A model generated the notes under the pieces. The model was not told where the DNA came from. It saw nothing but the letters and a program-made list of their open reading frames with translations, and did not search any database. Shown piece after piece: positions 48,071 to 53,024 of a stretch of DNA of 64,000 bases. Position 1 is the first letter of the stretch. Every line of letters starts with the position of its first letter. Location of the stretch: contig JAPPOQ010000015.1 of NCBI GenBank assembly GCA_028817895.1, positions 1 to 64,000 on the forward strand, read 5' to 3'. The DNA is from Ahrensia sp. (GTDB lineage: Bacteria > Pseudomonadota > Alphaproteobacteria > Rhizobiales > Rhizobiaceae). Both the position numbers and the translations under genes were made by a program.

Positions 48071-48085
48071 GTTCATTTTTTGTTC
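48071..48085 (+). promoter_or_regulatory. LexA (SOS) box upstream of recN
   Basis: GTTC ATTTTTT GTTC is an exact match to the alphaproteobacterial LexA operator GTTC-N7-GTTC. It lies about 75 bp before the recN start in a 103-bp gap. recN is a classical SOS gene, so LexA repression is expected. The box should also affect the genes chained behind recN. Confidence 0.8.
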
Positions 48086-48158
48086 TGTCTTGAGGCTGGT
48101 CTGAAACCACCAAATTCGCTAAATTGCCGACATTTGTGACCGTCGGCCCGGCCTGCAG

Positions 48159-49847
48159 ATGCTCAGCCTGCTTTCCATTCGCGACATCGTGCTTATTCGT
48201 TCGCTGGACATTGAGTTCAGCGAGGGGCTTGCCGTTTTGTCGGGGGAAACGGGGGCGGGAAAATCAATCCTGCTCGATTCGCTCTCATTGGCTCTTGGCG
48301 CGCGTGGTGATGGTGGGCTGGTGCGCAGCGGTGCAAAGCAGGGTCAGGTGACTGCCGTTTTCGACGTTTCGGCGCAGCACCCCATCGCGGACTGGCTTGT
48401 GCGCCATGATCTGGTCGAGGCCGGTGACGCCCCGGCCACTATCATTTTGCGCCGCACGCAGAATGTGGACGGACGTACCCGCGCCTTCATCAACGACAAC
48501 CCCGTCAGCGTGTCGCTGTTGCGCGAGGCGGGGCAGATGCTCGTCGAAATTCACGGCCAGCATGAAGAGCGGGCCCTGGTCGATGCGGATGCGCATCGTG
48601 CCCTGGTCGATGCATTTGGTGGCCTGGACGAGCTTTGCCAGAGAGTTGCGGCGGCTTACGGCGAATGGAAAGCCTCGCGTGAAGCGCTCAACAAGATGCG
48701 GGCGCGCATTCAGCAAGCCGCGCGAGAAAGCGCCTATCTTCGGGCCAGCGTCGATGAACTCACCACGCTCGCGCCGCAGCCGGGAGAAGAGGAAGACCTG
48801 GCCGACCGTCGCCAGACCATGATGTCGGCGGAAAAGATCGTCAGCGACATTAACGAGGCTTACGAGGTTCTGAACGGGTCTACTTCGCCTGTGCCGACGC
48901 TGGTGAGCGCGATGCGATCGCTAGAGCGCAAATCTGGCGCGGCGTCCGGCCTGTTGGACGAGGTAGTCGATGCCTTCGGGGCCGCATTGGATGCTCTCGC
49001 GACGGCGGAGGCCGCTCTGGAAGAGGCGCAGCGCAAGACCCAGTTCGAACCGCGCGAGTTGGAGGAGACCGAGGAGCGGCTTTTTGCGCTGCGGGCTGCG
49101 TCCCGCAAATATGCGGTTGCGGTGGAGCAACTGCCCGATCTGGCGCAACAACTGGCGTCTGATCTCGCTGAACTCGACTCGGGGGAAACACGCCTGGCTG
49201 AACTGGAAGAGCAAACGGCTTCCGCCCGCAAGACGCTTGAGGCTCAGGCGGCGACGCTTTCCGAAGCGCGCAGCGCGGCAGCCGAAGAGCTGTCGCAATG
49301 CGTTATGGCCGAGTTGCCGGATCTGAAGTTGGGCGAAGCGCGCCTGTTCGTTGAACACAGCACCGACAAGGAGGCGATTTCCGCTTCCGGGCGGGACACG
49401 ATCGAGTTTCATGTGCAAACCAACCCGGGCACAAGGCCGGGGCCTTTGATGAAAGTTGCCTCTGGCGGTGAGTTGTCGCGGTTTTTGCTGGCCTTGAAAG
49501 TCGCTTTGGCCGATCATGGGTCAGCCCCAACATTGATCTTTGATGAGATCGACACAGGCGTCGGCGGGGCGGTTGCCGACGCTATCGGCGCGCGGTTGGC
49601 AAAACTGGCCGTGCAGGTGCAGGTGCTCAGTGTCACCCACGCACCTCAGGTTGCCGCCCGCGCGTCGAACCATCTGGTCATTTCAAAAGGGTCGGCGGGA
49701 AAGGATGAGGCCGCTGTGGAAACCCGCGTGAAACCCGTGGAGGCCGATGCGCGGCGTGACGAAATTGCACGCATGCTGGCTGGCGCGCAGGTCACCCAAG
49801 AGGCTAAAGCCGCAGCCGAAAGCCTGCTGGCCGGAGCGCGGCTTTGA
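48159..49847 (+). CDS. recN: DNA repair protein RecN
   Basis: RecN is an SMC-like ATPase that acts early at double-strand breaks. The 562-residue protein has the N-terminal ATP loop [20 protein letters not shown] (near 27-46), [20 protein letters not shown], the [15 protein letters not shown] motif, a long coiled-coil middle, and the C-terminal signature [20 protein letters not shown] with [20 protein letters not shown] (Walker B). It is the first gene behind the LexA box. Its stop is overlapped by the TTG start of ligA. Confidence 0.96.
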
Positions 49848-51991: not shown

Positions 51992-52713
51992 CTGCAAGGC
52001 CAATGACCTCCGACAAACAGAACTTTCGCGACGGCATTCGCCACAGCTTGCCTTTCCTCTTGTCGGTTTGGCCATTTGGACTTGTGGTCGGCACGCTCGG
52101 TGTCAATGCAGGCGCCGGATTCTGGGATGTTGTCCTGCAAAGCGCGCTGTTCTTTGCCGGTGCGAGCCAGACCGTGATGTGGGAACTTTTTCCCGGCGGC
52201 AATCCGATCTGGGTCATTGCGCTGGCGATCTTTGCTGTAAACTTTCGTCTGGTCCTTTACTCGGCAGCGATTGGCCGCCAACTGGAACCGCTCTCGAAAC
52301 CGCGCCTGCTGTCGGCTCTGTTCCTGTTGCAGGACGTTTCCCTGGCCATGGGGCTGAAGCGCGTTGAGACGGACCGCGGCCTTTCCTGGCACTACTATAT
52401 GGGCCTCAGCCTCGTTCTCTACGTCATCTGGCTCACCGCGACGGCCACAGGCGCGGCTTTTGGTGTCCTGATCACGGAGCCGCGGCTTTTCGGGCTGGAT
52501 GTGCTGGTGCCGATCTACTTTTTGTGTCTTGTGATGGGGTTCCGATCCAAACCCAATGCGGCGATCATTTTTGCCGTCAGCGCCAGCGTTGCGGCCACGA
52601 CCTATCTGCTCGTTGGGTCGCCCTATCATATCGGGGCAGGCGGTCTCTGCGGCATGGGTGTCGCGGCGCTGCTTGCCAAATCGGCCGAGCGCTCTGGAAC
52701 GGAGCCGATCTGA
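51988..52713 (+). CDS. azlC: AzlC-type branched-chain amino acid exporter subunit
   Basis: AzlC is the large subunit of the AzlCD exporter for branched-chain amino acids or analogues. The 241-residue membrane protein opens [20 protein letters not shown] and has [17 protein letters not shown] and [20 protein letters not shown], with several hydrophobic helices to the end. The GTG overlapping the ligA stop (GTGA) is used; an ATG five codons later is possible, with AAGG too close to be convincing. azlD overlaps its stop. Its presence behind the SOS-linked recN-ligA chain is unusual. Confidence 0.9.
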
Positions 52714-53024
52714 TGGTGGCAAGCTTCGACCCTTTCATGCTGCAACTGATCTTCATCGGCGCGCTGGTGACTTTGGTGAACCGTCTCGCCGGGCATTTCA
52801 TCCTGGTGCGCTTTGAGCCGATCCCCTATCGCGTTGAAGCTGCGCTTGAAGCCGTACCCGTTGCCGTGATGACCACTTTGGTCGTGCCGGCTGCGCTCAA
52901 CGGGACCTGGATCGAATGGGTCGCACTTGCTACCGCAGCGATTCTGTCGACGCGACTTCCCTTTGTCGCTGCGGTGATTGGTGCATTGGCCGTATTGCTG
53001 GCCTTGCGGCAGGCGTTTGGGTAG
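52713..53024 (+). CDS. azlD: AzlD small exporter subunit
   Basis: The 103-residue membrane protein with three or four hydrophobic segments (MLQLIFIGALVTLVNRLAGH, RVEAALEAVPVAVMTTLVVP, FVAAVIGALAVLLALRQAF) matches AzlD, the small partner of AzlC. It starts on the last base of the azlC stop (TGATG), so subunits are made in step. The conserved LRYVPVAVM-like segment is present as ALEAVPVAVMTTLV. It converges with the aminopeptidase gene, ten bases away, with no terminator visible. Confidence 0.9.
   Translation: MVASFDPFMLQLIFIGALVTLVNRLAGHFILVRFEPIPYRVEAALEAVPVAVMTTLVVPAALNGTWIEWVALATAAILSTRLPFVAAVIGALAVLLALRQAFG

Follow-up and report, generated by a model that had tools for sequence, protein, structure and literature searches.

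A predicted LexA site in front of the recN-ligA-azlC-azlD gene cluster in one genus of the Rhizobiaceae

To our knowledge, DNA ligase is not usually counted among the SOS genes. The closest described system is the LexA regulon of Caulobacter crescentus, whose box, GTTCN7GTTC, is the same as the one found here in front of recN. In the excerpt of PMC12700426 considered here, Caulobacter recN (ccna_02062) is treated together with the SOS genes annotated earlier; deleting both lexA and sidA derepresses it, but it falls narrowly below the damage-induction threshold, with a log2FC of 0.95. The operon described below carries ligA, a gene that has 0 occurrences in the main text of that study (PMC12700426); the NAD ligase of Caulobacter is CC1522, according to an excerpt of PMC1839093. 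In its excerpted text, PMC9705874 assigns recN to the core SOS set and reports no LexA-controlled ligA, and the main text of PMC6473078 contains neither recN nor ligA. Judged by title or start of abstract, none of the literature matches listed describes a LexA-controlled recN-ligA operon; comparative LexA-regulon work may list recN or ligA for alphaproteobacteria.

Alphaproteobacterial recN-ligA loci in our class sample share the gene order of the present locus, with the two genes at most 400 bp apart in 43/51 and an overlap of 4 or 1 bp possible in 22/51. They differ from it in that a LexA-like site of at least 12 bits precedes recN in 1/51 (the control for our weight matrix was run for the family only), and in that azlC follows ligA in 0/41 of the loci that could be judged. 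Downstream of ligA, the likeness is to the AzlCD / YgaZH-type pairs, which we take to be branched-chain amino acid exporters, and it consists of a Pfam AzlC + AzlD pair encoded by overlapping genes. The azlC gene studied here differs from the azaleucine-resistance AzlC, scoring 29 bits against TIGR00346 where the cut-off of that equivalog is 332.35 bits, and it sits behind DNA repair genes.

The locus lies in the window, i.e. the whole 64-kb stretch of DNA that was analysed, which belongs to a 3.54-Mb genome assembled into 46 contigs. Open reading frames and profile searches give the order lpxC-bamD-recN-ligA-azlC-azlD, followed by a convergent M24 peptidase gene (Table 1), and an ftsZ-like frame, identified by eye from the list of open reading frames, lies farther upstream of lpxC. 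The bamD gene ends at 48055, on the same strand as recN and 103 bp away from it. The original prediction had read recN, ligA, azlC and azlD as a chain joined by stop/start overlaps, and all three overlaps are present, namely TTGA (recN/ligA), GTGA (ligA/azlC) and TGATG (azlC/azlD), with the qualification that ligA and azlC have alternative starts, GTG 49865 and ATG 52003, the latter 11 bp past the ligA stop. The ATG start of azlD was deduced from the sequence, the list of open reading frames giving a longer frame. Comparison of the overlaps in relatives, which had been proposed as a check, fell out in favour of the ligA/azlC overlap: an azlC start overlaps the ligA stop by 4 or 1 in 6/13 genus loci and some in-frame azlC start overlaps ligA in 10/13, which favours the overlapping azlC start over ATG 52003; azlD can start overlapping azlC by 8 in 10/13. 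From recN to azlD the genes are on one strand, with overlaps or short gaps and no clear internal terminator. Between 47100 and 53400, terminator-like sites number 8 against 7.1 expected, which is no excess over chance, and the one in the bamD-recN gap (48061-48074) is weak, with a 5-pair stem. Thus, recN-ligA-azlC-azlD is a tight co-directional four-gene unit.

Table 1. Features of the recN-ligA-azlC-azlD locus (positions in the window)
Feature	Position	Strand	Basis and remarks
LexA box GTTC-ATTTTTT-GTTC (GTTCATTTTTTGTTC)	48071..48085	+	Exact pattern match; weight matrix, 22.4 bits
Predicted -35 element (CTGGTC) of recN promoter	48096..48101	+	Shared CTGGYY spacing pattern
Predicted -10 element (TAAATT) of recN promoter	48120..48125	+	Same shared pattern
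recN, SMC-like DNA repair ATPase	48159..49847	+	TIGR00634, 465.7 bits (cut-off 407.85)
ligA, NAD-dependent DNA ligase	49844..51991	+	NF005932, 844.9 bits (cut-off 369); TTG start, GTG 49865 possible
azlC-like permease subunit	51988..52713	+	PF03591, 98.7 bits; GTG start, ATG 52003 possible
azlD-like permease subunit	52713..53024	+	PF05437, 36.3 bits (cut-off 23.7); ATG start
M24 peptidase	53035-54879	-	Convergent to azlD

The perfect LexA box that had been noted before recN was recovered as an exact match, GTTCATTTTTTGTTC, lying 88 bp upstream of the gene. As a test of this box, the bare GTTCN7GTTC pattern was rejected, since it shows no excess either in the 64-kb window (2 places against 2.04 expected) or genome-wide (110 against 127 for the reversed pattern); a T-rich form, GTTCN5TTGTTC, is over-represented (15 against 4), and a palindromic pattern unlike the alphaproteobacterial box was found at four places. 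Because the bare pattern is no commoner than chance, a weight matrix was built from 41 genus sites (33 distinct), taken from in front of lexA (two for each gene), recA, ssb/uvrA and imuA, with recN sites excluded. By this matrix the recN box, at 22.4 bits, is the best site in the window, the runner-up reaching 7.5 bits, about 15 bits lower. Random DNA matched to the window in dinucleotide composition reaches the score of the box at 1 place in 24 Mb, which gives a chance expectation of roughly 0.15 per genome and about 4e-6 per 103-bp gap, rough values that rest on that one random match. Training sites scored by a matrix made from the other classes of site have a median of about 12 for lexA and recA and range from -0.5 to 28.8; the matrix therefore separates imperfectly, and weak scores are not decisive. 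Among the 45 loci of its own genome that were scored, the recN box ranks with the sites before imuA/imuB, a GIY-YIG gene, ssb/uvrA, lexA, radA, a radical SAM gene and recA, a ranking in which the imuA, ssb/uvrA, lexA and one recA site belonged to the training set. The genome encodes both LexA (TIGR00498, 180.6 bits) and RecA. Thus, a LexA box of the host's own type lies in the recN promoter region, with a promoter-like element adjoining it.

Conservation was followed at three levels. The genus sample comprised every other genome in which recN was found, 13 in all (G215, a fourteenth genome, lacks it); these species are related and hence not independent observations. The family sample comprised 56 of the 59 other recN-bearing genomes, with G142, G143 and G175 left out for contig ends or a split gene. 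For the class, matches came from 123 other genomes, of which 51 were taken, mostly higher-scoring ones with room downstream, so the class counts lean towards closer, better assembled genomes. Loci truncated at a contig end still count towards these totals, scored as not assessable or as having no ligA in the sequence covered. In the 200 bp upstream of recN, on both strands, the matrix finds a site above 5 bits in 12/13 genus loci and one of at least 12 bits in 9/13, compared with 3/13 and 1/13 for reversed sequences, and the mean score is 12.6 against -4.1 for random 200-bp slices. Outside the genus, a recN site of at least 12 bits was found in 1/56 family and 1/51 class loci. The low family count is not a failing of the matrix, which gives a lexA box of at least 12 bits in 29/30 family genomes and in 0/30 reversed sequences; this positive control was run on 30 family genomes, that of the window included, out of 59 with a match. 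At 5 bits the reversed lexA control reaches 17/30, and the lower threshold is therefore lenient.

The site of the relatives has a character of its own. In 8/13 it takes the form GTTTN7GTAC (6/8 core letters), in 12/13 it is on the strand opposite to the box of the window, and in 9/13 it starts at -83 to -92, the box of the window starting at -88. One of the 13 (L187) has no site above 5 bits, and those of L182 (5.3 bits), L176 (6.8) and L179 (8.7) are weak. We read the genus site as a LexA site because of its likeness to two others in the same genomes, the second site of lexA (GTTCN4TTTGTAT or GTAC) and that of recA (GTACN7GTTC). With one mismatch allowed, the genus form GTACAWANCGGAAACA occurs at 12 places in 10 of the 15 genus genomes, 8 of them at recN, and has no match in the genome of the window; at three of the four places away from recN (L270, L274 and L276) no repair gene was recognised among the open reading frames. 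Taken together, the recN operon is very probably preceded by a LexA-binding site in this one genus of the Rhizobiaceae. As a separate matter, several family genomes carry GAACN7GAAC or something close to it at about -72 to -83. These places were considered as operators and rejected, as they sit in the end of bamD and, by eye, agree with its Glu-Pro-Arg-Glu-Asn codons.

The neighbourhood on which this site stands is wider spread than the site. Within 400 bp, recN and ligA are found together in 12/13 genus and 36/56 family loci, in addition to the class loci given above; 6 of the genus pairs and 1 of the family pairs could overlap by 4 or 1 bp. The recN box thus looks genus-specific and set on an older recN-ligA neighbourhood; its gain in this genus would be the simplest history, with loss elsewhere as the alternative. 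In one species a 1.1-kb FAD-monooxygenase-like gene (L181:2272-3396; PF01494, 173 bits) splits recN from ligA.

Between the box and recN, a pattern of CTGGYY, 18 bp and TAAAA, TAAAT, TAATA or TATGA is shared by the window and 8/13 genus loci. The pattern was composed after the sequences had been viewed and is thus a description, not a test; the case for a promoter in the gap comes from the spacing being fixed across these species. In the window, 10 bp separate the end of the box from the predicted -35 element, which the box thus precedes and does not cover. A repressor at such a site may act weakly, or may even help. The LexA of Rhodobacter has a dual role, activation included.

We consider it probable that recN, ligA, azlC and azlD form a LexA-controlled operon in which ligA is partly under SOS control and azlCD is a passenger. 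In this scheme a promoter at about 48096-48125 would drive a single transcript spanning all four genes, and LexA, bound at 48071-48085 ahead of the -35 element, would hold it down. When RecA forms filaments on damaged DNA, LexA would cleave itself and the operon would be induced; the NAD-dependent ligase would rise together with RecN, and the repaired breaks would be sealed. In undamaged cells, enough LigA would come from incomplete repression and/or from transcripts running in from lpxC-bamD. Given a predicted LexA site in front of a tight co-directional unit, co-induction of ligA and azlCD with recN, which had been anticipated, is the natural prediction.

How an essential ligase could live under LexA was a difficulty seen in the original prediction, which had offered two ways out, a ligA promoter inside recN or partial SOS control. 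ligA is expected to be essential, and the NAD-ligase adenylation domain PF01653 has 1 match in each of the 15 genus genomes, that of the window included, a count that covers NAD-dependent ligases only. The first way out implies that recN alone answers to LexA, with ligA expressed mainly from its own promoter in the 3' part of recN and LigA barely changed by damage. We regard this as unlikely. Apart from the expected essentiality, it draws support from the low synonymous variation at the 3' end of recN, where the genus shows a constraint peak from about codon 518 (z 5.5, the null 95% being 3.7). At codon 517 the genus scores z 4.3, the class 0.3 and the remaining family, whose two genes mostly have a gap between them, -0.9; at codon 529 the score is high (z 5.2) in the class sample, in which the genes often overlap. 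Against this, the neighbourhood of the Walker B codons of recN, where no promoter is expected, has a peak of almost the same height, and the 3'-end constraint is thus not specific to an embedded promoter. Furthermore, across 14 species the sigma-70-like matches of the final 180 nt of recN do not, on average, surpass those of codon-shuffled copies (mean z 0.23). For the window, 158/200 shuffled copies match as well as the real sequence, and only L180 and L181 fall below 10% of shuffles (5 and 14 of 200 as good); a simple scan found no plus-strand promoter-like site inside recN. As no convincing ligA promoter was found in recN, the first of the two ways out loses ground and the second, partial SOS control through a leaky promoter and/or read-through from bamD, is favoured by inference. 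Partial repression with read-through is thus the working answer that we favour for an essential ligase under LexA.

A transcript running from ftsZ/lpxC/bamD through azlD would also supply LigA, with the box as a minor modulator and ligA tracking the envelope and division genes. The shared strand, the 103 bp between bamD and recN and the chance level of terminator-like sites, including the weak one in the gap, would allow for it; the promoter-like element, whose spacing in the bamD-recN gap is fixed in the window and 8/13 relatives, and the gaps of 103-263 bp across the window species and its 13 relatives argue otherwise, and we judge such a single long unit to be distinctly improbable. A further reading, in which the box matches by chance or belongs to another regulator and recN is no SOS gene here, just as the missing box suggests for other Rhizobiaceae, is highly improbable, for although the bare pattern occurs at chance frequency and 55/56 family and 50/51 class loci have no 12-bit recN site, such a score is rarely expected by chance in a gap of this size (the rough figure above, from one random match), comparable sites occur in most of the genus, 9/13 at the same place, and recN is named in the core SOS set in the excerpt of PMC9705874.

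Returning to the proposed LexA-controlled operon, the exporter genes at its end would be translationally coupled to the genes before them. Within 100 bp after ligA, azlC is found in 12/13 genus, 9/56 family and 0/51 class loci; anywhere downstream of ligA it is found in 32/56 other family loci, nearly all of which lack the box. This occurrence of azlC downstream of ligA in family loci that lack the box makes the exporter look like a passenger of the operon. The AzlC proteins encoded after ligA in the genus fall into two groups, that of the window and six relatives (62-70% identity) and seven others with 39-44% identity to that of the window, which are 47-91% identical to one another among the matches listed. 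In the genus loci (L175-L187), the exporter may have been exchanged while its position after ligA was kept.

If LigA is damage-induced and otherwise partly repressed, sealing capacity would be a regulated part of the SOS response. Tentatively, we would go further and suggest that in this one genus an essential replication enzyme has been rewired into this response by a LexA site gained on a coupled recN-ligA pair, with the sole NAD-dependent ligase damage-inducible and partial repression in normal growth tolerated, and with AzlCD either riding along or relieving an amino-acid overflow at growth stop. The family offers a natural comparison, as some of its members keep recN and ligA at this location and have no strong box. 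At the level of a genus, this is a modest extension of the known LexA regulon, and its interest lies in the predicted damage-inducible LigA.

Several other observations concern predicted SOS sites elsewhere in the genome and genus. G215, a genus member of 0.9 Mb, has RecA and NAD ligase matches and no recN or lexA match, and is either a reduced or a misplaced genome. In the genome of the window, a LexA box, GTTCATTGTTTGTTC, of 18.9 bits (L308:5395-5409; G000:C15:99894-99908) lies in the divergent promoter of about 80 bp of a CBASS anti-phage locus, between a cGAS-like cyclase with an E1-E2 pair (L308:2441-5337, minus strand) and a 2TM effector (L308:5417-6085, plus strand). Six further CBASS loci, all on plasmids, were compared out of 66 records: the similar ones of Aminobacter aminovorans and Mesorhizobium sp. 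131-3-5 have GTTCN7GTTC in the gap (15.3 and 12.1 bits), and the remaining four stay below 6 bits. By title, none of the papers listed concerns LexA control of CBASS. A 27.6-bit box precedes a frame of 263 aa (L063:672-1463, minus strand) with no Pfam match, which is a candidate SOS gene, or no gene. In front of lexA, two boxes about 25 bp apart, GAACN7GAAC and a GTTCN4TTTGTWY-like site, are present in 13/13 genus loci (L019:1476-1515 in the window species; further lexA loci L235-L246 and L278-L307), and two sites above 11 bits in 29/30 family loci. Other predicted SOS genes of the genome (L013, L062, L064, L065, L068/L311 and L007) are those for a GIY-YIG nuclease, ssb/uvrA, radA, a PA0069-family radical SAM protein, imuA-like (its family match below the cut-off) and imuB-like proteins, and recA, which has two predicted sites.
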